DNA from: Methanosarcina sp. 2.H.T.1A.6
Lineage (GTDB): Archaea > Halobacteriota > Methanosarcinia > Methanosarcinales > Methanosarcinaceae
Reading direction: 5' to 3'
Length of the DNA: 36,482 bases
Assembly: GCF_000979455.1 (NCBI RefSeq)
Contig: NZ_JJOY01000034.1
Coordinates: forward strand, 1 to 36,482
Shown here: positions 15,083 to 30,411 of the stretch, one piece after another
How positions within the stretch are numbered: the first letter of the stretch is position 1
Layout of the letters: each line of letters starts with the position of its first letter
Translations under genes and position numbers: made by a program
The notes under the pieces: generated by a model
What the model was told of the DNA's origin: nothing
The model's database searches: none
The model's input: the letters and a program-made list of their open reading frames with translations, nothing else

Positions 15083-16573
15083 TTAAAAGCGATTCTCTGC
15101 GGTGTAGGTAATAGTTTTTGTGCCATTTGCAGGAACCGTCACTTTGAACTCAATGGTAAAAGCATCAGTTTTCCGGTACTCATCTGAAGTTTCCAGGATT
15201 TCCCATTCTCCGTAGAGATGTTCCACGACAGTCACATTCTGGGGTTCGGACTTGCTGTTGTTAATTTGTATCTCGTAGCTGACTCTCTCTACGTTATCAC
15301 TTATACGCTGGTAATCGGTCTGGTTTCGTGTGACTGTAAGGTCGAAGGCTGAACCGACAGTCAGTTTGAGTTCCTCGCCCAGAGGGGTATGCCCTATACT
15401 GTCTTCACCCAGGAACTGGAGTTCGTCTGCAGAGTCGGTATTATAAACTCTTACGACACCTGCCGGAAGAGGCATACCAGGTCCGGTTTCCTTTGAGTTT
15501 TCAAAGGTAAGGAAAATTCGGACTCTCTTACTCAGAGAACTATCATAGATGAGCTCCTTTTCCACAGGTACGGAGTCTATAGAGAAAAGTGAAATCTGCT
15601 TTTCCTGATTGTTTTTCAGAGTTGCCGGCCTGTCGAGGGTATAGAGGTGATATTCGGAAATTGACTCTTCGACAAAGGGAGCAACTGATTCTTCTTCAGC
15701 TACAGCTCCTTCGGTACGTTCTGGCAGAGGCCGTACAGGGGGAGACGCACGGTTTAGTTCTCCGGAGACAAGTTTCAGGGCTGCATTTTCATAGGTAATC
15801 CCTGCCCTGTTGTCAATATTAGCCCAGCCCCTGATATCAGCTTCGGTGTCATCGGCATTACTTTTCAGGACATAATTTGCTTTCCAGCTTAGACCTTCTG
15901 TCAGGTAGGACGTAAGGAGTTTGCGCGTTCCAGAAACAGGGGAATAAATCTGCCAGATAATAGTCGGTTTTGTTGAAAGTTCCGACGCATTCTGCAGTTC
16001 TATCCTGGAGACATCCTGAAGCACTATAGCTTCACCAGTTTCAGTTTCCAGGACGACACTCCCGCCCTCATGGCTGAGCAGCCTGCCTGTGTAGACATCA
16101 CCGTTTGTGCCCGTTACTGTAATCTCCCTGCCAAGGTACTTTTCAAGTAATCCGGAACTGCTCGCAAGGTCATATTCATAGTTCTGTTCAAGCACCGTCA
16201 CCTCCCCGCCCTCAGGGTCTTCGACCAGAACCGATGAAGGGATAATTCCGGAAGCAATGTCCGTATATTCTACCCGGTTAGTCCCCCTTTCAAGCTCCAT
16301 ATCTCGCCTTTCTTTTACAAGGGCAAGCCCCTGTTCATAAATTGTAAGCTCCATATCTCCGGCTTCAACTGCTCCTGAAGCCAGAATTTCCGGAGGATCT
16401 GCGGCTGGAATTTCCTCAGAAATTCCCGGATCTGATCCGGTTTGATTTTTGTCACTGCCAGACACATTTGCCTGAGCAACACCTTCCGGATAGTGAGGCA
16501 TATAAGCTGAAAAAAGTAATACGAATGCGATAAACACTAAAAAGAGCCATAGAATGTGTTTCTTCACTCCCAT
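15083..16573 (-). CDS. Exported/membrane-anchored DUF4139 domain protein, paralogue 1
   Basis: The product is 496 residues. A single hydrophobic segment at residues 8-24 (LWLFLVFIAFVLLFSAY) acts as signal or anchor, then a low-complexity linker, then a long beta-rich DUF4139 region from about residue 70 to the C-terminus. Blocks shared with the second copy at 25602-27101 include LALVKERR, VLEQNYEYDL, LTSYLTEGLSW, EYHLYTL-RPATLKNNQ, DSVPVEKELI and MPLPAGV. DUF4139 is also found in bacterial MuiA-type (mucoidy inhibitor) proteins, but no molecular function is established that I know of. A TATA-like CTATATAAATC on the minus strand near 16606-16596 places the start at about the ATG, so the mRNA is probably leaderless. 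It is convergent with rps10. Confidence 0.85.
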   Translation of the reverse strand: MGVKKHILWLFLVFIAFVLLFSAYMPHYPEGVAQANVSGSDKNQTGSDPGISEEIPAADPPEILASGAVEAGDMELTIYEQGLALVKERRDMELERGTNRVEYTDIASGIIPSSVLVEDPEGGEVTVLEQNYEYDLASSSGLLEKYLGREITVTGTNGDVYTGRLLSHEGGSVVLETETGEAIVLQDVSRIELQNASELSTKPTIIWQIYSPVSGTRKLLTSYLTEGLSWKANYVLKSNADDTEADIRGWANIDNRAGITYENAALKLVSGELNRASPPVRPLPERTEGAVAEEESVAPFVEESISEYHLYTLDRPATLKNNQEKQISLFSIDSVPVEKELIYDSSLSKRVRIFLTFENSKETGPGMPLPAGVVRVYNTDSADELQFLGEDSIGHTPLGEELKLTVGSAFDLTVTRNQTDYQRISDNVERVSYEIQINNSKSEPQNVTVVEHLYGEWEILETSDEYRKTDAFTIEFKVTVPANGTKTITYTAENRF

Positions 16574-16595
16574 AGTATAATCATTGGGGGTTCGG

Positions 16596-16606
16596 ATTTA
16601 TATAGA
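16596..16606 (-). promoter_or_regulatory. TATA box of DUF4139 paralogue 1
   Basis: Reading the minus strand, a TATATAAATC-type element lies 23-33 nt before the ATG at 16573. The expected start is at or within a few bases of that ATG, so little or no leader is predicted and no ribosome-binding site is visible. Confidence 0.55.
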
Positions 16607-16700
16607 TATGATTTTATAGAAATTTTCGAAAAGATGCAGTGCCAGAACTGCGATTCGAAGTTTACTGCCCTTCCAGAATTTCATCTTATGAATTATTTAC

Positions 16701-17876
16701 TTAATTTCCTACTGGATACCGGACAAACATCGCAAGAATCGGACACAATGTCGTTGGAATAATCAACAGAAACATCGCATCAAAAAGCGACCCCATCACA
16801 TCAGCAGCCAATCCGATAACCGCAACTCCTACTCCTCCAACACCCATACAAAGCCCTAGAATAAGACCTGATGCGAAAGCGACGTTTCCGGGTAGAAGTT
16901 CCTGCGTCATTGTGACCGATGTCACATAGCAGAAACAGGCAAAAAAAGAGTACATCATGATCCCAAAGTACATCAGCCAGCCGTCAGCAAGAAAAATCAG
17001 AGCAAAAAGCGGCACTGCAAATAAAAGACCCAGGACCAGCATCAATTTACGCCCGAAACGATCTGAAAAATATCCTCCTGCAATCTGACCCCCAACTCCA
17101 AAAAACAGCATAATCGTTACAATCAGGGATGTAGTCACCGTATCAAAGTCCTGAGATTCAAGAGTTAGAAGTGTCGGTAGATAGGTAATCAGTCCCACAT
17201 ATGCCCAGGCTCGAAGAGAACAGATTATAACAACCAGCCCTGCAGGAATCCACCAGAATTTTTTCCTCTCCAACGGATGACTTATAACTGTCTTTGCGGG
17301 CTTTTCAAAAACTTTTTCATCCAGATATCTGAGGTCATTTCGGTAAATCCATGCCGCCCCTATAATACCCGGAATTACCATCCATACAACTGATGAAAGA
17401 CCGGCAAATTCAATCAAAACCCCTGCAATAAAAGGTCCAATAGAGTAGCTGATGCTGCCGCTGGTTGTGAATATTGAATTGTACATCCCCCTTTTCGCCG
17501 GGGGGCTTAACCGGTAAACCAGATCCATTGCGGATGGATGAAACAACGCATGACCAATTGCAGCGCCCATTACCATCATGAGAAGGAGCAAATAATTGTT
17601 TGTGAAAACGGTAAGACAGATACCTAAACTGCCAATTGAAACACACAAAGGAACACTTGCACGCCAGCCGGTTTTATCGCTGTAGAGGCCGACAAACGGC
17701 TGGGTTACTGAGGATACCACATTAAATGCGGTGACAATAAGACCCGCAAGAAAATAGGACAAGCCCATCGTATCAATCAGGAGCGGAAGGATAATCGGAA
17801 GTATAGGAGTATAGAGGTCTATTAGAAAATGTCCGGTGATCGCTCCGGCGAGTTTTTTGCTAACAGTTGCAGTAAT
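16701..17876 (-). CDS. Major facilitator superfamily transporter (Fsr-like)
   Basis: This is a 12-helix MFS permease. The first ATG (17768) gives only 355 residues and cuts off the first helix. The frame continues upstream for 36 codons encoding KKLAGAITGHFLIDLYTPIL and more, a typical first MFS helix. Motif A appears as GLYSDKTGWR and is repeated in the second half as GGYFSDRFGRK. The GHALFHPSA stretch resembles the fosmidomycin-resistance (Fsr) group. No ATG/GTG/TTG lies in the extension. ATT at 17876-17874 follows an AGGAAGGG sequence and would give 391 residues. Substrate unknown; proximity to the methyltransferase/ABC locus suggests small-molecule export. Confidence 0.85.
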   Translation of the reverse strand: MTATVSKKLAGAITGHFLIDLYTPILPIILPLLIDTMGLSYFLAGLIVTAFNVVSSVTQPFVGLYSDKTGWRASVPLCVSIGSLGICLTVFTNNYLLLLMMVMGAAIGHALFHPSAMDLVYRLSPPAKRGMYNSIFTTSGSISYSIGPFIAGVLIEFAGLSSVVWMVIPGIIGAAWIYRNDLRYLDEKVFEKPAKTVISHPLERKKFWWIPAGLVVIICSLRAWAYVGLITYLPTLLTLESQDFDTVTTSLIVTIMLFFGVGGQIAGGYFSDRFGRKLMLVLGLLFAVPLFALIFLADGWLMYFGIMMYSFFACFCYVTSVTMTQELLPGNVAFASGLILGLCMGVGGVGVAVIGLAADVMGSLFDAMFLLIIPTTLCPILAMFVRYPVGN

Positions 17877-17949
17877 GGTAATCCCTTCCTGGGAATATTT
17901 TATTTTTTAACCCAAATTTGACAGAAGCACACATTTTATAATGTTGAAA

Positions 17950-17960
17950 TGGGCTTCATG
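17950..17960 (-). promoter_or_regulatory. TATA box of the MFS gene
   Basis: On the minus strand TATAAAATGTG lies about 75-85 nt before the proposed ATT start. A start near 17925 would leave a roughly 50-nt leader holding the AGGAAGGG sequence, which supports the extended reading frame over the internal ATG at 17768. The 233-nt gap 17877-18109 otherwise holds no gene that I can see. Confidence 0.5.
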
Positions 17961-18109
17961 CTTCTGTTTTCTTAATACAATTCAAAGTTTTGTCTTGCAT
18001 CTTATGATTTTTGGACGTTTTTTAATTTACTAAAACGTAGTGTGTCAATGCAACGTGTTTTGTGTAAGAAAATACTGTATTAATTAGCAGAATCTGTCAA
18101 ATTAGGGTT

Positions 18110-18517
18110 TTAATATGTAAGGAGAAGAAACTTATCCGGTTGAGGCAAAGTCCAGAGAAGATACTTGCTAAAAACAAAATCATACTCTCCATCTTTAAGA
18201 GGAATTTCTTCTGCATCTCCCTGCACTAACAAGATATTTGCTTCCTTTTCTCTGGCATTTGCAGCTGCTTTTTCAAGCATACATTCTGACAAATCGACAC
18301 CTGTTACATCGTGTCCCATGGCAGCAAGAGAGATGGCAAGAATCCCATGACCTGTTCCAACTTCCACTGCACGGACTTTTTTATCCGTTAGCAGAATTTC
18401 AGATAAAATGGATTTCCAGAGATCTATTTCCTCATCCATACAATGAGCATATTCTGTGTGATAATCAGAACTTCTGAAGTCCCAGTATTCCAATATTTTA
18501 TCTTTATTTTCTGTCAC
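18110..18517 (-). pseudogene. C-terminally truncated class I SAM-dependent methyltransferase
   Basis: The 135-residue product carries the N-terminal half of a class I methyltransferase: motif I VEVGTGHGILAISLA, the acidic strand-2 residue in TGVDLSECML, and the post-motif QGDAEEIPLKDGEYDFVFS. It is clearly related to the intact gene at 20974-21666 (DEEI, LLWTL--DKF). Homology stops right after PDKFL, followed by four residues and a stop, so the C-terminal ~95 residues are missing. The start is GTG 18517 within a GAGGTG sequence. Cofactor binding might survive, but catalysis of the family type is unlikely. It sits upstream of the MFS gene on the same strand, with a 233-nt gap. Confidence 0.8.
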
Positions 18518-18682
18518 CTCAATCGTTCAAGATCATTTTTTGATGTAATCTTCTGCAAAGTAAGACCATATTATCATTCAGTATTACAATTTATAAAAAT
18601 ATTGCATATATGCCACCATAATTAACAATATACAAATATATATGCATTTTATTTCATAAATAAAATTTAATAGATAACAACT

Positions 18683-18700
18683 AAGTTATATATATATTCC
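18683..18700 (+). promoter_or_regulatory. TATA region in the divergent spacer 18518-18742
   Basis: AGTTATATATATATTCC lies 43-60 nt before the ATG of the methyltransferase relic at 18743. The same 225-nt A+T-rich spacer must also hold the promoter of the truncated methyltransferase on the minus strand; candidate TATA runs there include the ATATATGCATTTTAT area near 18640-18655. The promoter appears intact although the plus-strand gene is broken. Confidence 0.4.
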
Positions 18701-18742
18701 GTATAGTATTAAAAATAGTAAAAATGAATAAAGGCGATTTAG

Positions 18743-18882
18743 ATGGAGAAAGCTGTGTTAGGAAAAGAGATTAGAAATTACTGGGATGAGGAACCTGATA
18801 TTACGACTATAGCGTAAACCATGGAATGAAAACGTACCGGGAAATCAGTCAGTCAACGGACAGATGCATGATTTTGGAATGA
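18743..18882 (+). pseudogene. Frameshifted relic of a SAM methyltransferase N-terminus
   Basis: From ATG 18743 the frame encodes 24 residues (MEKAVLGKEIRNYWDEEPD then ITTIA) and stops at 18815-18817. The IRNYWD stretch is the typical opening of this methyltransferase type (compare ILEYWDFRSSDYH and ITEHWNKISPNY in the two neighbours). A different frame from 18808 continues plausibly as YSVNHGMKTYREISQSTDR and ends at 18880-18882. A single frameshift joins the two. Nothing of the SAM-binding fold remains. This would be the third methyltransferase copy in 3 kb. Confidence 0.5.
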
Positions 18883-19002
18883 AGAGCAAATAAAAACCTT
18901 CTTATTTTTTTGTGCTTTTAGTTCAGCTCTGACGGTTAGCGCTTATATCTCCCGAATTAAACTCAGTATTTTTCAAAATAATAGTCTGATTAAACCCGGC
19001 AA

Positions 19003-19065
19003 CACAATATCTTTCAGATCAACGATGCAGCTTACTGGATAGTTCCTAATTCAAAAAAAAATTGC
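19003..19065 (+). pseudogene. Possible relic of a peptide/nickel-binding protein
   Basis: In one frame this stretch reads FQINDAAYWIVP, which resembles the conserved segment near the C-terminus of family 5 solute-binding proteins (the intact neighbour has IQIQEDAAILPVFY at the same place). Stops surround it and no other part of the family can be found. The similarity is short and may be chance. The rest of 18883-19100 shows no gene. Confidence 0.25.
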
Positions 19066-19109
19066 ATTTTATCACACTACCTATGAAGATATAGAATAAA
19101 ATCACGCAC

Positions 19110-19119
19110 TTTAAATATA
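19110..19119 (+). promoter_or_regulatory. TATA box of the ABC transporter/methyltransferase operon
   Basis: TTTAAATATA lies about 70-80 nt before the binding-protein start codon. Transcription from about 19143 would give a leader of roughly 45 nt. It is the best promoter ahead of the five or six downstream genes, which are closely spaced or overlapping. Confidence 0.5.
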
Positions 19120-19188
19120 CATTCTACATAACTTAGTAAAAGATAGTATCAAAAATATACTAGATATTTATGCACATTGGTGTTAATG

Positions 19189-20760
19189 ATGAAATTCAAC
19201 ATACAAAAAACAAAACTCTCCTTCCCTGCCATTACCTTAATTCTGATTGTTGCACTGCTCTGTGCAGGATGTGTTGAGACTGAGGGGACTGAAGAAAAAG
19301 TCCTCCACGTAGTTTTTAACGAAGGCCCCGATACAGGCGGCAGTCTTGACCCTGCTAACGGCTGGACAGGGTGGTATGTTCATCAGGCAGGCGTCTATGA
19401 AACTCTGTTCTACTATGACGCAGATATGAATCTCATGCCCAAACTTGCATCCGGCTACAAACAGTTAAACGATACAGAATGGGAAATCCAGCTTCGTGAA
19501 GATGTAGCTTTCCACGACGGAACAAAAATGGATGCGGATGCGGTACTGTTTTCAATGAACAGAGTACTTGATCCCTCAAACAGCAGATCATACGAGTACT
19601 CCTTTATCAAAGATGTACGAAAAACTGGTGAGTACACCATTGTAATCGAAACTAATGATGTTTATGCTCCGCTAATTGCATCCCTTGTAGACCCGATCAT
19701 GTCTATCATCAGTCCCAACATTGTTGACGCAGACAAACAGCCGGTTGGAACTGGGCCATTTATGTTTGTTTCCTTTGAACCAGGTACAAGCCTTGAAGTA
19801 GTAAAGAATCCGGATTACTGGGACGGTGAGGTCAAAGTTGACCGTATACTTATACAGTACAACAAAGACAGCACAGCCAGAACTCTGCTGATAAAATCAG
19901 GAGATATAGACATTGCCCGAGATCCCCTCCAGAGCGAGTATTCAGCACTTCAGACCAATCCTGAGATAAACGCCATTTCCAAAGAAACACTAAGAACGTA
20001 CTTCCTGTATATAAATGGCGGCAAAGCACCATTTGACGATTTCAGAGTCCGCCAGGCCCTCTCCTATGCAATTAACCGCCAGGAAATCGTGGATACAGCA
20101 CTTGAAGGGGTTTCCGGCCTTCCGGCAACAGGCATATTTACAAATACCATGCCATGGAACGCAAACGATCAGATCGAATCCTACGAATATAACCCTGAAA
20201 AAGCTCTGGAACTCTTCGAAGAAGCAGGAATCACGAAAGGTACAGATGGCAAACTCTACTACAACGGTGAACCGTTCACCATTGAAATCCAGACCTACAC
20301 AAAACGTGCAGCTCTTCAGCCGAGTGCAGAAATCATCGCCTCACAGCTGGAAGACATTGGCATCACCACAACTGTGACAATTCTGGACAGTGCTGCCCTT
20401 ACAGCAAATGCTGTTGCAGGAACGTATGACTTTTCACTTGCCGCGTGGAGTACGGCACCGACCGGAGATCCTGATTACTTCCTCTCGCTCCATTACCTCT
20501 CAACCGGAAACTATGCATCCAAATGGCTCCGCTATTCCAATCCTCAGGTAGATGAATGGATTCTTGAAGCAAGAACCGAACCTGACGAAGAGAAACGTGC
20601 AGAATTGTATGACAAAATCCAGATACAGATTCAAGAAGATGCAGCAATACTGCCTGTATTCTATGCCAACGAAATCTATGCACTGTCATCAGATGTTGAA
20701 GGCTTTGTGATGTATCCAAATGAGTATACAATCATCACCAAGGATATCGGATTTGTGTAA
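19189..20760 (+). CDS. Lipoprotein solute-binding protein of a nickel/peptide ABC transporter
   Basis: This is a family 5 extracellular solute-binding protein (NikA/DppA/OppA class), the extracytoplasmic receptor for the transporter encoded downstream. The 523-residue product opens with a signal peptide (LTLILIVALL-type core) ending in CAGC, a lipobox-like site with the anchor Cys at residue 28. Family landmarks follow: LDPANGWTGWYVHQAGVYETL, AFHDGTKMDADAVLFSMNR, GTGPFMF, NPDYWDGEVKVDRI, and DFRVRQALSYAINRQEIV. Starts at TTG 19177, GTG 19180, ATG 19186 and ATG 19189 are all in frame. ATG 19189 has GGTG 6 nt upstream. The ligand could be free nickel, a chelated metal, or a peptide; sequence alone does not say. 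Confidence 0.9.
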   Translation: MKFNIQKTKLSFPAITLILIVALLCAGCVETEGTEEKVLHVVFNEGPDTGGSLDPANGWTGWYVHQAGVYETLFYYDADMNLMPKLASGYKQLNDTEWEIQLREDVAFHDGTKMDADAVLFSMNRVLDPSNSRSYEYSFIKDVRKTGEYTIVIETNDVYAPLIASLVDPIMSIISPNIVDADKQPVGTGPFMFVSFEPGTSLEVVKNPDYWDGEVKVDRILIQYNKDSTARTLLIKSGDIDIARDPLQSEYSALQTNPEINAISKETLRTYFLYINGGKAPFDDFRVRQALSYAINRQEIVDTALEGVSGLPATGIFTNTMPWNANDQIESYEYNPEKALELFEEAGITKGTDGKLYYNGEPFTIEIQTYTKRAALQPSAEIIASQLEDIGITTTVTILDSAALTANAVAGTYDFSLAAWSTAPTGDPDYFLSLHYLSTGNYASKWLRYSNPQVDEWILEARTEPDEEKRAELYDKIQIQIQEDAAILPVFYANEIYALSSDVEGFVMYPNEYTIITKDIGFV

Positions 20761-20780
20761 ATTTGTTGAGAAGGCGAAGA

Positions 20781-20807
20781 AAAACTGCCGTTGCAAACAG
20801 CAGTTTT
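20781..20807 (+). promoter_or_regulatory. Intercistronic hairpin after the binding-protein gene
   Basis: AAAACTGC (20781-20788) and GCAGTTTT (20800-20807) form a perfect 8-bp stem with an 11-nt loop, 21 nt after the binding-protein stop. Such hairpins in transporter operons often terminate or protect part of the mRNA so that the binding protein is made in excess over the membrane parts. A second imperfect GGGGAAG/CTTC-CCCC structure lies near 20870-20894. Confidence 0.5.
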
Positions 20808-20897
20808 GATGTTGCTTGGAGAAAGGTATGCTTCCGAGGGAGAGATCTGCAAAGGAGATAACTTTCACGGGGAAGTTCTGGCTTCTCTCCCCCCAAT

Positions 20898-20963
20898 CTC
20901 AAAGGTTTTGAAATTTATCCAAACGAATACACGTTCATTACAAAGGAAATGGAACTTGCCTGA
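20898..20963 (+). pseudogene. C-terminal scar of a second solute-binding protein gene
   Basis: This stretch encodes LKGFEIYPNEYTFITKEMELA followed by a stop at 20961-20963. The intact binding protein ends VEGFVMYPNEYTIITKDIGFV, so it is the extreme C-terminus of a second copy, out of any start codon context. The scar ends 10 nt before the methyltransferase ATG. It suggests that two tandem binding-protein genes once stood here and one was lost by deletion or by recombination between them. Confidence 0.75.
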
Positions 20964-20973
20964 GGGTTAAAAA

Positions 20974-21666
20974 ATGAAAGACAAAATTACAGAACACTGG
21001 AATAAGATTAGTCCAAATTACCGGAAGATGTATCATGACCACCTTGATGAAGAGATTCTCCTGATGCAAAACCTTTTTTTAGAGAGGCTGCCAGCAGATA
21101 AAAAACTCAATGTCCTTGATATCGGGACAGGGCCTGGCATCCAGGCATTTGTTTTTGCCGAAATGGGGCACAATGTCACTGCTCTTGACATCTCAGAAGA
21201 GATGCTCGCACGTGCAAAAGAAGGGGCAAAGAACCGCAATTTGTCAATTAAGTTTGTTGAAGGCGACGGAGAAAAACTGTCGTTTGAAGACAATACGTTT
21301 GATGTTATCGTAAACATGCACCTCCTCTGGACGCTCACAAATCATGACAAATTCTTCAATGAATGCCAAAGAGTCCTGGTACCCGGGGGCAGGATTCTTG
21401 CAATCGACGGGCAATGGTTCCAGCCAGGATACGTTCCAGACAAAAATTACAACCCTGAAGAAAGAAATCACGATGAGTTGATTGAGTATCTTCCGCTTTA
21501 TGACAGAAACTCGCCTGAAATGATTACAGCCATCATGGAAAATAACGGGTTTTCGGAGGTCTCCTGGAAATCTCTTCCCGAGTATGCCGAGTATATGAAA
21601 AGATGCGATCCGGAAGGTTATGACTACTTATCTATCCCGTACCTTGCCACCGGAATAAAATGTTGA
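20974..21666 (+). CDS. Class I SAM-dependent methyltransferase in the transporter operon
   Basis: The 230-residue product has a complete class I (Methyltransf_11/UbiE-like) fold. Motif I is VLDIGTGPG (47-55), the acidic ribose-binding residue is Asp72 in ALDISEEML, EGDGEKLSFEDNTFDVIV holds motif II, and LVPGGRILAIDG is motif III. The N-terminal helix EHWNKISPNYRKMYHDHLDEE may shape the acceptor pocket. The substrate is unknown. GAGG at 20962-20965 precedes ATG 20974. The gene lies between the binding-protein and permease genes and ends 31 nt before the first permease, so the enzyme is very likely coexpressed with the transporter. A truncated paralogue and a relic lie upstream. Confidence 0.88.
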   Translation: MKDKITEHWNKISPNYRKMYHDHLDEEILLMQNLFLERLPADKKLNVLDIGTGPGIQAFVFAEMGHNVTALDISEEMLARAKEGAKNRNLSIKFVEGDGEKLSFEDNTFDVIVNMHLLWTLTNHDKFFNECQRVLVPGGRILAIDGQWFQPGYVPDKNYNPEERNHDELIEYLPLYDRNSPEMITAIMENNGFSEVSWKSLPEYAEYMKRCDPEGYDYLSIPYLATGIKC

Positions 21667-21697
21667 TGAAAAGCTGAAGTTTTCCAGAGGCACTGTA

Positions 21698-22648
21698 ATG
21701 CTGAAAGATTATTTCATACGCCGGGCTCTGTATCTCATCCCGGTTCTCATATTTATCTCATTTATGAGTTTCTCACTCATCTATATCGCCCCGGGCGACC
21801 CGGCAGAGATTATGATGACGAGTCCCTCGGGTGGATATGATGAGGCAGCTGTTGAAGCGTTCCGTATAGCCCACGGGCTTGACCAGCCATTTTACATCCA
21901 GTATCTGAACTGGTTCAAAGGCGCTGTTGTAGGAAACTTTGGCTACTCATATATGAGCGAACAGCCGGTGTTTGAAACTGTTCTGAACGCATTTAAAAAT
22001 ACGCTGACACTTTCCGTTCTTGCCCTTGTAATTGCTCTTGTTATTGCCATTCCGTTTGGCGTAGTTTCAGCTCTGAAACATAACACGGTTGTTGACGATG
22101 CCTGCCGATTTTGTGCTCTCTTCGGGGTATCCATTCCGAATTTCTGGCAGGCCTATATGATGATAATTCTTTTTTCGGTAATCCTTCACTGGCTACCTCC
22201 ATCCGGGTTCGGGCACGGGACAGAGATCAGCTACATGATTCTGCCTGCGACTGTCCTTGGAACAGGGTCGGCCGCTGTAATGATGCGGATGATCCGTTCA
22301 AGCATGCTGGATGTCATGGGGAAGGAGTACATCCAGACCGCACGTGGGAAAGGACTTTCGGAAAAGATCGTCATCATTAGACATGCTTTGAAAAACGCGC
22401 TTGTTCCGGTTATCACAGTGATTGGGCTGTCGATTGGTTTTCTCTTAAACGGCTCGGTTGTTGTTGAAACAATTTTTGGATGGTCGGGTATTGGAAATCT
22501 TGTTGTGGACTCAATTCTTTCCCACGATTATATGATGGTACAGGGCTCTGTGCTCTTTGTTGCCGTCATTTTCCTTTTGATCAACTTCTTTGTAGACCTG
22601 GTCTACGTTTGGGCGAACCCGGAGATACGATATGATAGAAATTCTTAA
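21698..22648 (+). CDS. ABC transporter permease, nickel/peptide class (NikB/DppB-like)
   Basis: This 316-residue inner-membrane permease has an N-terminal helix (RRALYLIPVLIFISFMSFSLIYIAPGD; residues about 9-34) typical of the B-type permease, then about five further helices. The ATPase-coupling EAA loop is KEYIQTARGKGLSEK-like, followed by HALKNALVPVITVIGLS. AGAGG-type ribosome binding (21686-21690) precedes ATG 21698 by 7 nt. The end overlaps the next permease by 17 nt. With its partner it forms the membrane channel for whatever ligand the lipoprotein binds. Confidence 0.93.
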   Translation: MLKDYFIRRALYLIPVLIFISFMSFSLIYIAPGDPAEIMMTSPSGGYDEAAVEAFRIAHGLDQPFYIQYLNWFKGAVVGNFGYSYMSEQPVFETVLNAFKNTLTLSVLALVIALVIAIPFGVVSALKHNTVVDDACRFCALFGVSIPNFWQAYMMIILFSVILHWLPPSGFGHGTEISYMILPATVLGTGSAAVMMRMIRSSMLDVMGKEYIQTARGKGLSEKIVIIRHALKNALVPVITVIGLSIGFLLNGSVVVETIFGWSGIGNLVVDSILSHDYMMVQGSVLFVAVIFLLINFFVDLVYVWANPEIRYDRNS

Positions 22649-23471
22649 AAATCGGCAGATTATTCTCTCCCTGATAATCCTTGGAGGGCTTATCTTCATG
22701 GCCGTGTTTGCCGGGGTTTTAGCCCCATACGACTACAAGGAAAAGGATCTGCAGAACCGTCAACAGCCTCCGTCTTCGGACCACCTGTTCGGGACCGATC
22801 ACCTCGGCCGTGATATCCTGACAATGGTGATGTACGGCGCACGAGCATCCCTTTTCGTCGGTTTTGCGGTTGTCAGCGTCTCGCTTGCAATCGGGGTAAC
22901 ACTTGGCGTTCTGGCAGGATATTACGGCGGGTGGCTGGATGAGATTATCATGCGGCTGACGGATAGTTTTCTTGCTTTTCCGTCGATGTTTCTGGCACTT
23001 GCAATTACAGCGTTTCTGGGACAGGGAATGGAAAACATGATGCTTGCTTTAATTGCTGTCGAGTGGACAGTGTTTGCGAGAGTTGCACGCGGTTCAACAC
23101 TTGACGTCAAGACAAAAGGCTATGTCCGGGCATCCCGCTGGGTCGGGGCTTCAAACAGTTATGTGATGATAAAGCATGTTCTTCCAAACATTATCTCTCC
23201 GGTTTTGATTATGGCATCGATTGGAATAGGAAACGTGATTCTGGCAGCGGCCGGTTTAAGTTTCCTCGGGTTTGGAGTGCAGCCGTCAACACCCGAATGG
23301 GGTTCAATGCTGAATGCAGGACGGACATATTTCTCAACTGCCCCCTGGCTGATGTTTTTCCCGGGTCTTTTGATCATGATGACCGTGCTTGCGTTCAACT
23401 ATTTCGGCGATGGGCTGCGGGATGCCCTTGACCAGAAGATGAAAAATCTTGAGCTTGAAGGGAGGTTCTGA
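22632..23471 (+). CDS. ABC transporter permease, nickel/peptide class (NikC/DppC-like)
   Basis: The second permease has 279 residues. The family's periplasmic-side opening is visible as DHLFGTDHLGRDILTMVMYGARASLFVGF (residues about 50-78, quoted in part), followed by transmembrane helices and the EAA loop near TKGYVRASRWVGASN. It ends with the NYFGDGLRDALDQKMK segment found across DppC/NikC proteins. ATG 22632 lies inside the end of the previous gene, and its stop lies 1 nt before the next start, so all are translationally coupled. Confidence 0.94.
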   Translation: MIEILKNRQIILSLIILGGLIFMAVFAGVLAPYDYKEKDLQNRQQPPSSDHLFGTDHLGRDILTMVMYGARASLFVGFAVVSVSLAIGVTLGVLAGYYGGWLDEIIMRLTDSFLAFPSMFLALAITAFLGQGMENMMLALIAVEWTVFARVARGSTLDVKTKGYVRASRWVGASNSYVMIKHVLPNIISPVLIMASIGIGNVILAAAGLSFLGFGVQPSTPEWGSMLNAGRTYFSTAPWLMFFPGLLIMMTVLAFNYFGDGLRDALDQKMKNLELEGRF

Positions 23472-23472
23472 T

Positions 23473-24411
23473 ATGTCTGATGTGTTGCTGAAAGTATCCG
23501 GGGTTTCCGTATCAATCCCAACCGGACAGGGAGCAGTTCATGCGGTTGATGATGCGGCTTTTTCGATTAACAAACATGAGGTGTTCTCACTGATAGGGGA
23601 ATCCGGGAGCGGCAAGTCAATTCTTGGCCAGGCAATAATGCGGCTGCTTCCCCCGAATGCGGTGTTTTCCGGAAAAGTGGAACTTGGCGGTATGGAAATA
23701 TCAGCTCTTTCCGAAAAGGAGATGCAGAAAGTCCGCGGCAAAACGGTTGCATCAATTGCCCAGAACCCGTATCTTGCGATGAATCCTGGAATCAGGGTGG
23801 GCACTCAGATTGCAGAGCCGATGAGGGCCCATCTTGGAATGAGTAAAGAGGAGGCAAAGGCCAGGACATGCCGGGCTCTGAAGTATTTTGATATAATCCC
23901 TCCTGAAGTGCGGGAAAGGGAATACCCGTTCCAGTACAGTGGGGGAATGCTGCAACGGGCGATGGTTGCAATGGGAACGGCTGCAGATCCTGAACTGATT
24001 ATCGCTGATGAACCGACAAAAGGCGTTGATGTGCTGAAGAAGCGCAATATTGCGGCAATTTTTCAAAAGGTTGCCTCGGACGGCTGTGCGTTTCTTTTAA
24101 TTACACATGATGTCGGTTTTGCCCGGGCGATGTCGGACAGAATCGCGGTAAATTACTGCGGGCAGATAATTGAGATTGCAGGAAGGGATGCGTTTTTCAA
24201 AGAGCCTTTGCATCCGTATTCACAGGCGCTTTTAGATGCGGTGCCGGAGCGCGGCATGCACCCGATTCCGGGCTCTTCACCTTCGATGATTGAGGTGCCC
24301 GAAGGATGCAGGTTTCATCCTCGATGTCCGTATAAAACGGACAGGTGCCTGACTAATCCGCCGGTTGTAAAGCTGGAGGGAAGATGTGTGAGGTGCTGGA
24401 TTTATGCTTAA
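23473..24411 (+). CDS. ABC transporter ATPase, nickel/peptide class (NikD/DppD-like)
   Basis: The ATP-hydrolysing subunit has 312 residues. Walker A is GESGSGKS (42-49), the Q-loop glutamine is 97, the signature YSGGMLQR begins at 155, Walker B LIIADEPTKG has Glu180, and the switch His is 212. The C-terminal oligopeptide/dipeptide extension holds GCRFHPRCPYKTDRC with Cys279, Cys285, Cys292 and a later Cys305/308, the pattern reported to bind a 4Fe-4S cluster in DppD-type ATPases. ATG 23473 is chosen over an upstream frame start because GGGAGG (23460-23465) lies 7 nt ahead. GCG/CGC codons look commoner than in the rpo genes. Confidence 0.94.
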   Translation: MSDVLLKVSGVSVSIPTGQGAVHAVDDAAFSINKHEVFSLIGESGSGKSILGQAIMRLLPPNAVFSGKVELGGMEISALSEKEMQKVRGKTVASIAQNPYLAMNPGIRVGTQIAEPMRAHLGMSKEEAKARTCRALKYFDIIPPEVREREYPFQYSGGMLQRAMVAMGTAADPELIIADEPTKGVDVLKKRNIAAIFQKVASDGCAFLLITHDVGFARAMSDRIAVNYCGQIIEIAGRDAFFKEPLHPYSQALLDAVPERGMHPIPGSSPSMIEVPEGCRFHPRCPYKTDRCLTNPPVVKLEGRCVRCWIYA

Positions 24412-25321
24412 GGCAGAGAATCTGCGTTGTGTTTACACCTCAGGCCTGATTAAAACCGTCAAAAAGACAGCAGTCTGCGGGGTTGATCTTGAGATTTGTC
24501 CGGGCGAGACAGTGGCTATTGTCGGGGAGTCGGGGTGCGGGAAGTCGACGCTTGCAAAGATGCTTGTCCAGCAACTTGAGCCTACTTCCGGGGAAGTGTT
24601 CTTCGACGGGACGAAACTGACGGGGATGAACTGGAAGAATCTCCGGAAGTTTATGGGAAAAATCCAGCTGATCCCTCAAAATCCTGATGATGTGGTTGAC
24701 CCGAGATGGACGGTTGAGCGGTCGGTTGCTGAACCGTTTGTGATTTGCGGAGGTTTTTCCAGAGAGGAGATTTCGGCAAATGTAGCTGCCCTGTTTGAAG
24801 AAGTGGGGCTTTCTGCAGAGCACAGGCCCCGATATCCGCATGAGTTGTCAGGAGGAGAACTGCAGAGGGTAGTAATTGCCAGGGCGCTTACTCTGAAACC
24901 TGAGCTGCTGGTCTGTGACGAGGCGACCTCGATGCTTGATGTGTCGGTGCAGGCGTTTATTGTGACGATGCTCAAAGAGATTCAAAAAAAACGCGGTCTA
25001 GGACTGGTGTTTATTACGCATGACCTGGAGGCAGCGAAGGCTGTTTCGGACCGGGTACTGGTGATGTATGCAGGTGAGATTGTTGAGGAGGGGAAGGATG
25101 TGTTTGATCGGCCTCTGCACCCGTATACGCGTGCTCTTATGGACGCGGTACAGTATGCGTCGCTTGAAGTTGTGCTGCCGGAGGATGTAGGACCACTGCC
25201 TGATGGTTTTTCGGGATGTTCCTACTACAAATTGTGCAGAGAGAGAACGGAAGCGTGTAAAGAGTCGCAGAAACTACGGAATGTCTCCGAGAGATTGGTG
25301 AGGTGCTGGAAAGCAAAATGA
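24404..25321 (+). CDS. ABC transporter ATPase, nickel/peptide class (NikE/DppF-like)
   Basis: The second ATPase has 305 residues. Walker A is GESGCGKST (41-49), Q-loop Gln92, signature LSGGELQR (148-155), Walker B with Glu173 in LLVCDEATSMLD, and His206 in ITHD. Its C-terminal cysteine set is looser (Cys272, Cys278, Cys285, Cys301), still compatible with an iron-sulphur site as in DppF. ATG 24404 overlaps the previous gene by 8 nt. It is the last gene of the operon. A long inverted repeat lies downstream, between it and the convergent DUF4139 gene. Confidence 0.94.
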   Translation: MLKAENLRCVYTSGLIKTVKKTAVCGVDLEICPGETVAIVGESGCGKSTLAKMLVQQLEPTSGEVFFDGTKLTGMNWKNLRKFMGKIQLIPQNPDDVVDPRWTVERSVAEPFVICGGFSREEISANVAALFEEVGLSAEHRPRYPHELSGGELQRVVIARALTLKPELLVCDEATSMLDVSVQAFIVTMLKEIQKKRGLGLVFITHDLEAAKAVSDRVLVMYAGEIVEEGKDVFDRPLHPYTRALMDAVQYASLEVVLPEDVGPLPDGFSGCSYYKLCRERTEACKESQKLRNVSERLVRCWKAK

Positions 25322-25463
25322 CTGCAATCCAGACACTGTTTTATCCATAGAACTTAAGTGTGCGATGCAGGGAAAGAAAAACTAAGGGGATTATCTTTTG
25401 GATCCCGGAATAAATCAACTAATTGATCAGAGACGACCGATTTTCAGAAAAAGGTATAAAGAG

Positions 25464-25531
25464 CCGGCTTGAAAAGTAAAGGGGTAAAAAGCCCCCCCAA
25501 ATTATTTATCTGATTTTTTCCATCAAGCCGG
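25464..25531. terminator. Long inverted repeat between convergent genes
   Basis: CCGGCTTGA (25464-25472) and TCAAGCCGG (25523-25531) form a perfect 9-bp stem. Inside lie GGGG/CCCC (near 25480 and 25492) and a T-run (tgattttttcc, 25511-25521). It lies between the transporter operon and the DUF4139 gene that run toward each other, so it may terminate both. The rest of 25322-25601 shows no gene. Confidence 0.5.
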
Positions 25532-25601
25532 AGTCCGGAAGATTTTCAGGCATTTCAGCCTAAGAACTTAACATTGTCGGGAATTAATAGCTGCCAAAAA
25601 C

Positions 25602-27101
25602 TCAATATCTGTGTCCCACTGTGAAAGAGACTTTTTTCGAACCATCTGCAGGCACGGTCACTTCCCATTCGGCAGTGTAAGCATCCGTCTTTTCATAAGT
25701 ATCGGAACTGGCGGTAATCTCCCAGTCTCCGTAGAAATGTTCCACAATCCTGATTTTCTGTGCTTCAGGCTTATGGTTATTTAATTCAATTTCATAGCTT
25801 TCCCGCCAGACATTAGTGCCCACCTTTTTGTAGTCGGTCTGAGTTCTGGTGCCGGTTACATCAAAAGCGCTTCCGACAACAACTTTGACTTCCTCATCTT
25901 TTGGGGTGTGGTCTATACTGTCTTCTCCGAGGAACTGGAGCTGCCCTTCGGAATCAGCTTTATATACCCTCAAAACTCCGGCAGGGAGAGGCATTCCAAG
26001 GCCTTTTTCTTTTGAGTTATTCAGGTTCAGGACTACCTGTACCTTATCGCTTTTTGAAACATCAAAAATAAGTTCCTTTTCCACGGGCACGGAATCTGCA
26101 GAGAGAAGGGAAAGCTGCTTGACCTGGTTATTTTTCAGAGTAGCCGGCCTTTCAAGGGTATAGAGATGATACTCAAAGAGGGATTCCTCAACAAAGCTGT
26201 CCTTTGCACCGTCATACATTACTTCCTGCTCTGCAACCTCCTCAGTATAACGAATCGGCTGCGGTACAGCTATACGGTGAACTTCACCTGCAACGAGCTT
26301 CAATTTGGCATCCTCATAGGTGGTCCCTGCCCCATTGTCGACACTGACCCAGCCCTGGATATCAGCCTTTGTATCATCTGCATTCGTCTTTACGATGTAG
26401 TCTGCCCTCCAGCTCATGCCGTCCGTAAGATAGGAAGTAAGGATATCCCGGCTGCCTGCTACAGGAGAATAGACCTGCCAGACCAGAGTGGGTTTTGTAA
26501 GCAAGTTTGCAGAGTCAGGGAATTCCACTCTTGAGACCTCGGAAAGAGTTACAACCTTCCCATCACTTAACCTGAGCACTATCCCGCCGTCATAGCTGAG
26601 AAGAATTCCTGTATATGTATTTCCTTCTTTTTCGGTTACAGTAATCTCCTTGTCCAGGAATTTTCCCAGAAGCTTCTGACTACTCACAAGATCGTACTCA
26701 TAGTTCTGTTCAAGCACAGCAGTATTTTTGTTCTTTGTGTCCTCAAACATTACAGAAGTCGGGTCAATGAGAGCAGCAACATCCGTATACTCAACCCTGT
26801 TGACCCCGATCTTTAAATCGAGTTCCCTGCGTTCTTTTACAAGGGCAAGGTTGTCGTTATAAACCGTAACCTCGGTAGCTGCATCTGTCGCCGCAGCCCC
26901 TGCCGTAAGCAACTCCAGGGGATTTGAAGGTTTGATACTGGATATTGCACTGGAAGAGGATTCAATACCATTAGCAGCGATTTCATGCTCATCAACCTGA
27001 ACCGTGACTTCAGCAGCTCCAGGGTATCCAAGCGCTGCAGCTGTGGCTACAACCCCGATAAAAGCCAGAAAAATCCATAGATAACTTGTTCTTGTTCTCA
27101 T
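25602..27101 (-). CDS. Exported/membrane-anchored DUF4139 domain protein, paralogue 2
   Basis: The 499-residue product is a close paralogue of the gene at 15083-16573 and has the same plan: a hydrophobic N-terminal segment (residues 7-25), a variable linker to about 68, and the DUF4139 region to the end. Shared blocks include LALVKERRELDL-type, VLEQNYEYDLVSS, LTSYLTDGMSWRADY, YTLERPATLKNNQ and MPLPAGVLRVY. The linker between the two beta-rich parts (about residues 275-305) differs most. Localisation outside the membrane is inferred from the N-terminus. No enzyme motif is visible and no function is proposed. A TATA box 21-35 nt before the ATG predicts a leaderless mRNA. Confidence 0.86.
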   Translation of the reverse strand: MRTRTSYLWIFLAFIGVVATAAALGYPGAAEVTVQVDEHEIAANGIESSSSAISSIKPSNPLELLTAGAAATDAATEVTVYNDNLALVKERRELDLKIGVNRVEYTDVAALIDPTSVMFEDTKNKNTAVLEQNYEYDLVSSQKLLGKFLDKEITVTEKEGNTYTGILLSYDGGIVLRLSDGKVVTLSEVSRVEFPDSANLLTKPTLVWQVYSPVAGSRDILTSYLTDGMSWRADYIVKTNADDTKADIQGWVSVDNGAGTTYEDAKLKLVAGEVHRIAVPQPIRYTEEVAEQEVMYDGAKDSFVEESLFEYHLYTLERPATLKNNQVKQLSLLSADSVPVEKELIFDVSKSDKVQVVLNLNNSKEKGLGMPLPAGVLRVYKADSEGQLQFLGEDSIDHTPKDEEVKVVVGSAFDVTGTRTQTDYKKVGTNVWRESYEIELNNHKPEAQKIRIVEHFYGDWEITASSDTYEKTDAYTAEWEVTVPADGSKKVSFTVGHRY

Positions 27102-27121
27102 AACAGTAAAATAAGCAACTG

Positions 27122-27136
27122 TATTATATATATGTG
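27122..27136 (-). promoter_or_regulatory. TATA box of DUF4139 paralogue 2
   Basis: Read on the minus strand, CACATATATATAATAC lies 21-35 nt before ATG 27101, putting the expected transcription start at the start codon or a few bases before it. This matches the arrangement of paralogue 1. Confidence 0.55.
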
Positions 27137-27275
27137 GCTTTGACTACGGATTCATTCGAAGTCATCCCTCTAAACCCCTGGCTTTTTGAAGCCATAAGGT
27201 GCGAGAAGTCCCTCAAGACACTGGAAATTAAATAATCCCTCCGGATTTAATGAAAATAAGTCTGAGAACAGTTAC

Positions 27276-27286
27276 AATAATATATA
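27276..27286 (+). promoter_or_regulatory. TATA box of the PKD/PGF-pre-PGF gene
   Basis: AATAATATATA lies 68-78 nt before ATG 27354. A start near 27308-27312 would fall after the first in-frame TTG (27306) and just before ATG 27315, so the later ATG 27354 with a short leader is favoured. Confidence 0.5.
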
Positions 27287-27353
27287 CCAGTACAGCATAT
27301 AGAATTTGAGACAGATGACCAATAAGCCCGAAAAAACTAAAGGACTTGTTTTC

Positions 27354-28844
27354 ATGAAAACTATTGAGACCCTTAAAGTAAAAAACCGGATCAAACTCTC
27401 AAATTTTATCTCCGGTCTTATACTTATCCTATTTTTTGCAGTAACTATACTTCCAGTTTCAGCTTCTGGAATCGAGGCTAACAGGGAGATTTCTGCAGGA
27501 ACGGTTTATGCAGGCGGAACTTTCACAGTAACCGTGCACATACAGACAGACCAGTATATTGAAGCCCCTACTCTTGATGAAAACCTTCCTGAGGGATTGT
27601 CCATAAGCATAGTTGAAAATGCCGGGGCTACGCTCCAGAATACCGAAACTTTCAAAGAGTCTACCCTTGAATGGATCTGGGTCGAGAGCCTTCAGGCAGG
27701 TGGGGAAAAAACTGTTGTGTACAGGGTTACAGTGCCTTCAACTGCGGAACCTGGAAATTTCACAATTTCGGGTAATGTTTCTGCGTATTCCATCTCCGCT
27801 GTTCCTGTTACAGGAGCTTCGGAAATAATAATCACATACACTCCTCCTGAAGCTAAATTTTCCGCAAACCCCCTCTCCGGCACCGCGCCTCTTACAGTCC
27901 AGTTCACGGATTTATGTACAGGCAACCCGGATTCCTGGGAGTGGGATTTTGATGGAAACGGAAGCATCGACTCTTTGGAGAAAAATCCGGCATGGAACTA
28001 TGAAACCCCGGGTACCTATACTGTCACCCTCAGGGCAGCTAACACTACCTACGGAAATGATACTGAGACAAAAGAAAGTTACATCCGGGTTATGGAGAAA
28101 ACCGCGTCTTCCGGAGGAAGCGGAGGAAGCAGTGGAGGAGGGGGCGGAGGTGGAGGTGGAGGCTCTCCGGAATCAAGCAGAAACATAGAGCTCAAGGAGC
28201 TTTCAAATGAGCAGGTCTTCAAAGGAGTCCACGCCTGCTATACCTTCAAAGGAGAGACAAACGAAATAGTTGCTGTGGAGTTTGACCCGAAAAAGAACTT
28301 CGGCAAAACAACCACAATTGTGGAGATGCTAAAGAACACGTCCGCAATAGTAAAAGAGCCTGCCCCCGGAACCGTTTATAAGAACCTGAATATCTGGGTA
28401 GGAAACAGCGGATTTTCAAGCTCTGAAAATCTTGAAAATGCCCGGATAAGCTTCAGAGTAAACCGGACCTGGCTTTCCGAAAACGACATCAGTGAAAACA
28501 CAATAACCCTTTACAGGCACAATGAAAATACGTGGAACGCGCTGCCCACAACTCTGACCGGAGAAGATGAAGATTTCTTCTACTTTACAGCAGAAACCCC
28601 GGGATTTTCGCCTTTTGCGATTGCAAGCCCTGAAAAGAATACAAAACGGATTGAAATCACCCCTATTAGAAATAAAGAAAGTAATGTCATGAGCGCGGGA
28701 GAAATATCCGGAGAAGAAAGTGAAGAAAATCTGGCTTCGGATAAAGAAAAGGAAGATGAAGATGCTCCGGGAGCTGGAGTCTCATTTACGGCAGCCGGGC
28801 TTCTGGCATCATACGCAGCCCTGAAGAAAAGGAAGATGAAATAA
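27354..28844 (+). CDS. Surface protein with PKD and PGF-pre-PGF domains
   Basis: The 496-residue secreted protein starts with a signal peptide ending near ILPVSASG (residues 31-39). A DUF11-like adhesin/beta domain follows (about 40-162), then a PKD domain (about 165-247) with the hallmarks SGTAPLTVQFTD, WEWDFDGNG and YTVTLRAAN, a Gly/Ser linker containing ten glycines (252-271), and a PGF-pre-PGF domain (about 277-425) ending PGFSPFAIA. The tail is acidic (450-470) then APGAGVSFTAAGLLASYAAL plus KKRKMK, a PGF-CTERM-like arrangement recognised by archaeosortases, with an atypical PGAG. It is probably displayed in the cell envelope. Upstream in-frame starts at TTG 27306 and ATG 27315 are less likely. 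Confidence 0.85.
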   Translation: MKTIETLKVKNRIKLSNFISGLILILFFAVTILPVSASGIEANREISAGTVYAGGTFTVTVHIQTDQYIEAPTLDENLPEGLSISIVENAGATLQNTETFKESTLEWIWVESLQAGGEKTVVYRVTVPSTAEPGNFTISGNVSAYSISAVPVTGASEIIITYTPPEAKFSANPLSGTAPLTVQFTDLCTGNPDSWEWDFDGNGSIDSLEKNPAWNYETPGTYTVTLRAANTTYGNDTETKESYIRVMEKTASSGGSGGSSGGGGGGGGGGSPESSRNIELKELSNEQVFKGVHACYTFKGETNEIVAVEFDPKKNFGKTTTIVEMLKNTSAIVKEPAPGTVYKNLNIWVGNSGFSSSENLENARISFRVNRTWLSENDISENTITLYRHNENTWNALPTTLTGEDEDFFYFTAETPGFSPFAIASPEKNTKRIEITPIRNKESNVMSAGEISGEESEENLASDKEKEDEDAPGAGVSFTAAGLLASYAALKKRKMK

Positions 28845-28857
28845 ATATCTAAAGACC

Positions 28858-28881
28858 AGGAAGGTTCGGAGAAACCTTCCT
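28858..28881 (+). terminator. Hairpin terminator after the surface-protein gene
   Basis: AGGAAGGTT (28858-28866) and AACCTTCCT (28873-28881) form a perfect 9-bp stem with a CGGAGA loop, 13 nt after the stop codon. Confidence 0.6.
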
Positions 28882-29469
28882 TCCCAAGTTTCGCCTCGCC
28901 TGAATTGCGTCTCGCCCGAATTGCACTTTGGAATCACAGTAAATCGAATATTTTTGAGGAGTTGCGATGTAATCACAACAGTACGCTGTCCGTTTCAGCA
29001 GAGTTGCGGCTCTGCAGTACGCTGCCCTTTTCGCTGCGCTCAAGAGGGCTAATCTATGGGTTTTAGCAGTGAGCTTCACTCGCTCAAGAGGACTAAGTTA
29101 CAAATATTTATGACCAATACAACGTCATTCGCTGTTTTAAGTCGTTTTTGTCACGCTCGACGCAGGAGAGCGGCCTTCAGACAAAAAAGAAGAGAAAAGA
29201 CAAAAAAGAGAAAAAAGAGAGAATCCAGAAGTAAGAGCGAACGACAAAAATGTGTTGAATACAAACAAAATAAATACTGCCTGCAAAACACTCTTTTTCA
29301 AATATCTTTTTTATTGTTTTTATATTTTTTTTCAAATTTAGTTCTTCTTTCTTTTTTTGACCGGCCGCCAGACAAGCTGGCGGAGACGTTCTATAATCTT
29401 TGAGTTGAAAACCAGCTTCCGAAACCAGGAAAAATATTTATCAGGCTGGGAGGAGGATTTCTACCAATA
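28882..29469. repeat. Gene-free, repeat-rich intergenic stretch
   Basis: Nearly 600 nt without a credible gene. It contains near-duplicate short units: TCGCCTGAATTGCG/TCGCCCGAATTGCA (near 28892 and 28908), AGTACGCTG twice (near 28980 and 29018), and CGCTCAAGAGGGCTAA/CGCTCAAGAGGACTAA (near 29036 and 29082). Perfect hairpins are GCAGAG/CTCTGC (28998-29015) and CCGCCAG/CTGGCGG (29365-29383). A purine-rich run lies at 29190-29230. The pattern is that of a degenerate dispersed repeat; whether it occurs elsewhere in the genome cannot be told from this window. Confidence 0.6.
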
Positions 29470-30411
29470 TCAAATATATCCGCACTTTTCAAGCCAGGTA
29501 AGAGACCTTATCCATTCCCCTTTTGGCTCCCTTGAAGTGCCAACGACAAGCCGCTTCTTATCCCCGAATTCTTCAACCACGCCGCGGGCTTCTATAATCT
29601 CCCCTGGGAGAGCCTGGCCTGCATAGGTGTGGGTATAGGAGAGCACATGGTCGATTTCGTCGTGTTCTACTTTGTAGTAAGAAGGGCTGTCAAAGGCAAA
29701 GTCAGCGTTTTTGACCTCGGCTTCGATTTTCATTTTGACGGTGTCTTTTCCCCGCTGGAGAGGCTCTTTAATCTGGTCCCATTCCCGCACGAAAAGGAGG
29801 TCGAAATACGTGCCCTCAACCATGCCGCGGTTACCTTTCCTGGACTCGTGAAACATGAATTCGTCAAAAGAAATCTCAGGGATTCTTTTCCTGTAGATCC
29901 TCTGCCACATTTCCTCATCGATCTCTTCTATAGGCCCTTCCTGCTGTTTAGCAGCGGTTATAGCGTCTCTTGCCCTGAACCACATAGGGCCGTAGACAAC
30001 AAAATCGACATCTGAACTTTCATTTTGCAGGCCTGCAAGCATTGAACCCGTAACTCCCATACTTGTCCTGGGAATTCCTGCCATATCAAGCACCTTTACG
30101 ATTGCCCTTACACGGCTGTCAGAATTCACAAGTTCCGGGATGCAGTCAGAGGGGCGAAGCACCTGCTTTACCTCGGACTCCGGGACAACGTGCACGTCCT
30201 GCACCCATTCAGGCCTGTTTTGTTTCATGAAATCGAAAGCCGGACCAAAATCGTATTTTTTGTACCGTTTCCCGTTTAACTCTCTCTCCCCGTTTTCATC
30301 AGGAACATAACGGAGTGTGGATCTTATTCCATCGTTACGGAAGTAGTCAGAAACCGCAAAAAGCCAGTCATCGTTTGTAAGAAGAAAATCTCTGAGGCGT
30401 GTTTTAAGCAT
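29470..30411 (-). CDS. Predicted nucleotidyltransferase-fold protein
   Basis: The 313-residue product has a polymerase-beta-type nucleotidyltransferase core: GVTGSMLAG (119-127) with Gly122-Ser123, then SSDVDFVVYG with Asp134 and Asp136 as metal ligands, and a probable third acidic residue Asp204 in GTYFDLLFVRE. The N-terminal ~100 residues (RDFLLTNDDWLFAVSDYFR, then a KYDFGPAFDF segment) are an archaea-typical extension, and the C-terminal ~60 residues look like a small beta domain. It matches my recollection of an uncharacterised archaeal family of predicted nucleotidyltransferases. The substrate is unknown: RNA, protein or a small molecule are all possible. It is a lone gene on the minus strand. 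Confidence 0.8.
   Translation of the reverse strand: MLKTRLRDFLLTNDDWLFAVSDYFRNDGIRSTLRYVPDENGERELNGKRYKKYDFGPAFDFMKQNRPEWVQDVHVVPESEVKQVLRPSDCIPELVNSDSRVRAIVKVLDMAGIPRTSMGVTGSMLAGLQNESSDVDFVVYGPMWFRARDAITAAKQQEGPIEEIDEEMWQRIYRKRIPEISFDEFMFHESRKGNRGMVEGTYFDLLFVREWDQIKEPLQRGKDTVKMKIEAEVKNADFAFDSPSYYKVEHDEIDHVLSYTHTYAGQALPGEIIEARGVVEEFGDKKRLVVGTSREPKGEWIRSLTWLEKCGYI

Follow-up and report, generated by a model that had tools for sequence, protein, structure and literature searches.

A methyltransferase gene within an importer operon

We analysed a stretch of 36,482 bases from Methanosarcina sp. 2.H.T.1A.6 (contig 21 of the genome), hereafter the window, by open reading frame (ORF) calling and comparison with the Pfam and NCBIfam models. 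Our subject is a plus-strand operon in which the gene for an S-adenosylmethionine (SAM)-dependent methyltransferase, MT1, is embedded among the genes of an ATP-binding cassette (ABC) importer. The gene order is SBP_bac_5 (solute-binding protein family 5, SBP5), MT1, two BPD_transp_1 permeases and two oligo_HPY ATPases, and these components together make up an importer of the Opp/Nik type (SBP5, PepT/NikABCDE class) within one operon. A gene for a major facilitator superfamily (MFS) transporter and a shortened second methyltransferase gene, MT2, lie on the minus strand, divergent from the operon. An earlier reading made from the letters alone (the sequence-only reading) had placed a SAM methyltransferase between the binding-protein and permease genes of a complete operon, adjoined by an MFS gene and a truncated paralogous methyltransferase; gene order, strands and families all proved to be as claimed. 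The features of the locus are the following.

16701-17876, minus strand: MFS transporter, a possible exporter (PF07690, E 1.8e-46)
18110-18517, minus strand: MT2, truncated second methyltransferase (tblastn against the intact MT2 of locus L025)
19094-19118, plus strand: putative conserved promoter element GAATAAAATCACNCANTTTAAATAT (alignment of 13 orthologous upstream regions)
19177-20760, plus strand: SBP1, solute-binding protein of family 5 with a lipoprotein-type N-terminus (PF00496, E 2.2e-94)
20892-20951, plus strand: SBP2 remnant, the last 20 codons of a deleted second binding-protein gene (match to SBP2 of locus L026)
20974-21666, plus strand: MT1, intact SAM-dependent small-molecule methyltransferase (PF08241, E 1.3e-27; Methyltransf_11/25)
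21698-22648, plus strand: ABC permease B, Opp2B/NikB type (NF045470, 351.4 bits, cut-off 350)
22632-23471, plus strand: ABC permease C, Opp2C/NikC type (NF045474, 311.5 bits, cut-off 300)
23449-24411, plus strand: ABC ATPase D (PF00005 and PF08352)
24404-25321, plus strand: ABC ATPase F (PF00005 and PF08352)

The short spacing noted earlier is found downstream of MT1, where 31 nt separate it from the first permease gene and all later genes overlap, but not upstream, where a gap of 213 nt follows SBP1 and contains the SBP2 remnant. Translation of SBP1 probably starts at the ATG at 19186 or 19189 rather than at the TTG at 19177. The MFS protein is 90% identical over 391 aa to its counterpart at this locus in Methanosarcina UBA402 (L025), and the homology reaches upstream to about 17876, past the annotated ATG at 17768. 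The element GAATAAAATCACNCANTTTAAATAT occurs once in the window, at a distance of 83 nt upstream of the binding-protein ORF, and is repeated in tandem in some of the relatives whose upstream regions were aligned. We rejected it as an operator common to the methyltransferase operons of the genome, since the stringency used gave no match to it at the remaining loci. No riboswitch was found in the window. On either side of the MFS/MT2/Opp locus are DUF4139 proteins (15083-16573 and 25602-27101, both on the minus strand) that are 53% identical to each other, and the locus is positioned as if between a duplicated pair.

MT1 has a class I methyltransferase fold in an AlphaFold2 model (built from 25 sequences, pLDDT 85) and carries the SAM-binding motif; D49-x-G51-x-G53-x-G55 is conserved in its family. 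The best structural match is phosphoethanolamine N-methyltransferase (VIA-align Z 22.1, 2.9 Å, 218 residues), with many other structures scoring within 1-2 Z units of it. Compared with that enzyme, UbiG and glycine sarcosine N-methyltransferase, MT1 shares the fold at Z 20-22 over approximately 190-220 residues and differs in sequence, with about 20% identity and a family-conserved Trp119 in an LLWTL-type motif that is kept in 162 of 163 family domains. Because the top structural matches mix N-, O- and C-methyltransferases, the substrate is not deducible from the fold, and we abandoned that route to it. MT1 scores above the cut-off of no NCBIfam model, and it is not a member of the nicotianamine synthase (NAS) family, as PF03059 is not among its Pfam matches.

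The operon had also been assigned to the NikABCDE class. The transporter architecture is indeed that of the E. coli type, and both permeases exceed the Opp2B and Opp2C cut-offs. SBP1 itself matches 3t66, the structure of a protein that bears a nickel-binding name (E 4.9e-65), as well as NikA of E. coli (2noo, E 1.7e-44). It does not reach the NikA/Opp5A cut-offs: the best NCBIfam model, Opp5A_nikA, gives 324 bits against 600, and a further comparison gives 207 against 393. In addition, Thr443 of SBP1 aligns with His416 of NikA, which we take to be the nickel ligand of the E. coli protein. Judged by its sequence, SBP1 is NikA-like by family and not a canonical NikA, an identity left unsupported because the nickel-coordinating His is replaced by Thr. 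A further difference from NikABCDE is the methyltransferase gene inside the operon.

Conservation of the methyltransferase beside importers

To describe the family of MT1 we used a profile of 15 members, for which the scores show a gap between approximately E 1e-40 and 1e-33. The profile found 97 family genes in 58 of 247 sampled Halobacteriota genomes, two of the 58 matching only on the weak side of the gap. Sixty archaeal loci were fetched and their neighbours labelled, followed by samples of Clostridia and Desulfobacterota, in which 18 of 291 and 6 of 297 genomes, respectively, carry the family. Rarity beside transporters in other genomes had been set beforehand as the outcome that would speak against the sequence-only reading, and the opposite was found. 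An Opp, Fec or NAS/Cbi importer lies within four genes of 81 of the 87 archaeal members examined and of 27 of the 39 members in the sampled Clostridia and Desulfobacterota. The corresponding number for generic methyltransferases (lower-similarity matches from the scan of genome contigs) is 1 of 60, a comparison that sets a family chosen by similarity to MT1 against remoter methyltransferases, partly from other taxa, and thus describes the boundary of the family rather than serving as a matched control. The order SBP5-MT-oppB occurs 21 times in archaea. The association of the family with importers is general and not a local accident, and these numbers lend strong support to the earlier idea of a methyltransferase linked to the import of a metal or metal chelate. 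It was not described in the open-licence papers searched, which is weak evidence of novelty.

Phylogeny of the methyltransferase had been proposed as a further check. In a tree of 163 domains made by a quick method, MT1 of the window falls in a set of 18 rows, every one of which is at an Opp locus. MT1-type and MT2-type sequences form two groups inside this set, and each group includes rows from G121 and G213, genomes of other families of the phylum; the pair therefore predates the genus. Members with like importer contexts (Opp, Fec, NAS) cluster in the tree, yet the context has switched repeatedly. Within the genome under study the family accompanies three mechanistically different importer types: Opp in the window and at L104, where two members flank a second Opp operon, BP2/FecCD at L106, and CbiMNQO at L105. 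One genome, G247, holds 15 members.

Several observations concern the family or its surroundings more loosely. Three tandem members each occur in G265:C14 and G252:C1 (Methanosarcina), one in G252 having an internal stop. At L033, L035, L036, L039, L040 and L041 (Clostridia and one Pseudogracilibacillus), the methyltransferases form tandem fusions or are joined to an AstE/AspA-like hydrolase domain. In another Opp operon of the present genome, the gene between those for binding protein and permease encodes a second, more divergent SAM methyltransferase (L014:1375-2274, contig C53), and comparable ones are found at L160, L036 and L193.

The window copy of the locus is partly degraded. MT1 is 89-93% identical in seven close relatives (genome contigs), six of which have a full-length MT2, and two binding-protein genes precede MT1 in five relatives (L024, L026, L027, L029 and L030). 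The SBP2 remnant is 100% identical to residues 495-514 of SBP2 of L026 (M. spelaei; E 3.5e-9), and relative to L025 the window also lacks a third binding-protein gene. MT2 retains residues 1-128 of 238 and has lost its C-terminal half; tblastn aligns it at 87% identity with residues 2-128 of the intact MT2 of L025, the match ending at 18125. To judge from this truncation, MT2 is probably non-functional in the window. MT1, SBP1, the permeases and the ATPases appear intact.

Metal-related neighbours and expression

Neighbouring genes connect the family with metals. At L105 in this genome, a paralogous methyltransferase adjoins two PF03059 proteins (E 1.4e-31 and 8.6e-20) and CbiM, CbiN-like, CbiQ and CbiO proteins; one of the two NAS proteins has matches to structures of thermonicotianamine synthase (3e-31) and a weak one to CntL. 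At L106 a family member overlaps a DUF4198 gene next to Peripla_BP_2 (BP2) and FecCD genes. A neighbour resembling CooC, a CO dehydrogenase accessory protein, is found at seven archaeal loci, and its only PDB match at E 1e-10 or better is 3kje (E 7e-24). In Clostridia, cobalamin riboswitches lie about 108 to 237 nt before the first gene of methyltransferase-containing operons at L223, L226, L039 and L242, and others occur at L215, L216 and L220; a small control, ten 14-kb regions (140 kb in total) of five clostridial genomes in the sample, contained none. L215 and L221 encode repressors of the CsoR/RcnR family, and L220 one of the DtxR type. By these contents, the related loci would point to nickel at some places and to cobalt at others. 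Proteins with a dinitrogenase iron-molybdenum cofactor domain and His-rich stretches are encoded near the methyltransferase at L032 and L242.

The link with NAS is partial. The family is present in 13 of 18 genomes with a firm NAS match (p 4e-6, uncorrected for relatedness), and two NAS-like genes and a CbiO-like gene adjoin the methyltransferase at L037 (Desulfobacteraceae), as the two PF03059 proteins and CbiMNQO do at L105. No NAS match was obtained among the scanned window proteins, and the only PF03059 matches of this genome are both on contig C22. Nicotianamine was rejected as a scaffold that the family requires in general, as most family-bearing genomes have no firm NAS match.

Candidate exporters also accompany the family: MFS genes are found at nine loci, and pairs of ABC exporter-fold half-transporters (564-627 aa), one or two genes from the methyltransferase, at another nine (L208, L219, L224, L226, L228, L231, L233, L234 and L236). 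Those half-transporters that were checked resemble MsbA-type models, and one also YbtQ.

Proteomic data are available for Methanosarcina barkeri MS. In that study, OppA binding proteins are much lower in the presence of Fe(II)/cysteine than when pyrite or Fe(II)/sulfide is supplied, two adjacent OppA pairs are named (MSBRM_0219/0220 and MSBRM_0900/0901), and the authors read the change as cell-cell recognition; their abstract regards the complexation of trace metals by sulfide as probably a major factor (PMC10846266). In agreement with the two pairs of that study, SBP5 genes stand as adjacent pairs at exactly two places in genome G249, and the second place is a window-type locus. The distance from CobD to this pair is about 73 kb in G249, with a crude count of 64 ORFs, against 59 gene numbers from MSBRM_0841 to MSBRM_0900. 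These positions fit an identification of MSBRM_0900/0901 with the SBP5 pair of the window-type locus. The comparison suggests that the orthologous binding proteins of M. barkeri are responsive to sulfide, which sequesters metals; the difference in abundance is described for the OppA proteins as a group that includes MSBRM_0900/0901.

Possible roles and comparison with known metallophore systems

Starting from the observed gene context, metal-related neighbours and small-molecule methyltransferase fold, we infer a metal ligand as the substrate and an order of steps. We give about an even chance to the proposal that the family serves to acquire nickel or cobalt bound to a small organic ligand on which the enzyme acts, with chelator tailoring favoured. 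The binding protein would capture the metal-ligand complex, the OppBCDF-type ABC transporter would import it, and the methyltransferase would methylate that ligand in the cytoplasm. In the favoured version, the ligand would be a chelator made by the cell and methylation a tailoring step before export, which would fall to the adjoining MFS protein in the window and, at some of the other loci, to MFS or ABC exporters. Chelator biosynthesis is ranked ahead of release after import, a close second, because of the NAS neighbours, the co-occurrence of NAS with the family, and the MFS or paired ABC exporter-fold genes at nine loci each.

Release after import, which we consider less likely, would involve a ligand from the environment or other cells; methylation would block a donor atom and free the metal, and the MFS protein would export the spent ligand. 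Siderophore esterases or reductases free metal after uptake and provide the model. The tight placement of methyltransferases between the binding-protein and permease genes of importer operons agrees with such a role, as do their pairing or fusion with each other or with an AstE/AspA-like hydrolase domain in Clostridia and the usual absence of a scaffold-building enzyme; the AstE/AspA-like fusions in Blautia are compatible with biosynthesis or release. On the other hand, the NAS-associated members imply a ligand that is made, MFS or ABC exporters accompany a subset of the loci, and we know of no precedent for metal release by methylation.

A corrinoid or other tetrapyrrole cargo, remodelled by the methyltransferase after uptake, is improbable. 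The cobalamin riboswitches that head several clostridial operons would suit it, the vitamin B12 importer class belongs to the BP2/FecCD importers, SBP5 relatives include heme-binding proteins, and a CobQ-like gene (identified by eye) is near some NAS loci. However, CooC, CbiMNQO, the CsoR/RcnR-type repressors and NAS elsewhere indicate metal ions instead, and most NikA relatives were described as nickel-specific, riboswitch-preceded ones being exceptional (Zhang et al. 2009, PMC2667541). Least probable of all is an ordinary peptide transporter with the methyltransferase as a bystander or part of unrelated metabolism: SBP5/Opp families are mostly peptide importers with over-specific family names, and SBP1 is below every NCBIfam cut-off, but the association is kept across phyla and importer types and with metal-linked neighbours.

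Several facts weigh against the proposal of metal-ligand acquisition with chelator tailoring. No firm NAS match is found in 43 of the 56 firm family-bearing archaeal genomes or in the family-bearing sampled Clostridia, exporters are present at a minority of loci, and 12 of 39 bacterial and 6 of 87 archaeal members have no importer detected within four genes. The metal varies with context, so that of the window may be nickel or cobalt. With MT2 and at least one binding protein lost, the full pathway may not work at the window locus. Of the sequence-only reading, which is partly supported overall, the chemistry (modification of an imported ligand or a secreted chelator) goes beyond what sequence can show.

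Taken together, the loci suggest that a molecule which binds metal is made or processed by an uncharacterised route in methanogenic archaea and in several anaerobic bacteria. A broader proposal, to which we assign slightly less than an even chance, is that methylated nickel or cobalt chelators, or metal release by SAM-dependent methylation, are widespread and undescribed in methanogenic archaea, Clostridia and sulfate reducers, with one family serving Opp, Fec and ECF importers. A conserved methyltransferase with several importer types offers a concrete, genetically tractable entry point, and a methylated chelator, if that is its product, could influence how metals are shared in anaerobic communities, including gut Clostridia.

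The closest comparison is with the staphylopine (Cnt) and other opine metallophore systems, to which the sequence-only reading had drawn a partial analogy while seeing no opine synthase or NAS-like gene. Their absence stands: no NAS/CntL-like aminobutanoyltransferase was found among the window proteins scanned and no CntM-like opine dehydrogenase among the main ORFs of 15083-29470. The analogy itself is limited by the family genomes without firm NAS matches and by the Fec and ECF importers that the family also accompanies. What the window shares with Cnt is an SBP5-type binding protein, an OppBCDF-type importer and an MFS protein, here a possible exporter, in one locus. Both systems have a SAM-using enzyme of class I fold near the importer, CntL in Cnt and the methyltransferase here, and elsewhere in this genome two NAS/CntL relatives stand beside a paralogous methyltransferase. 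The locus thus resembles metallophore loci in which methyltransferases take the place of the known scaffold enzymes.

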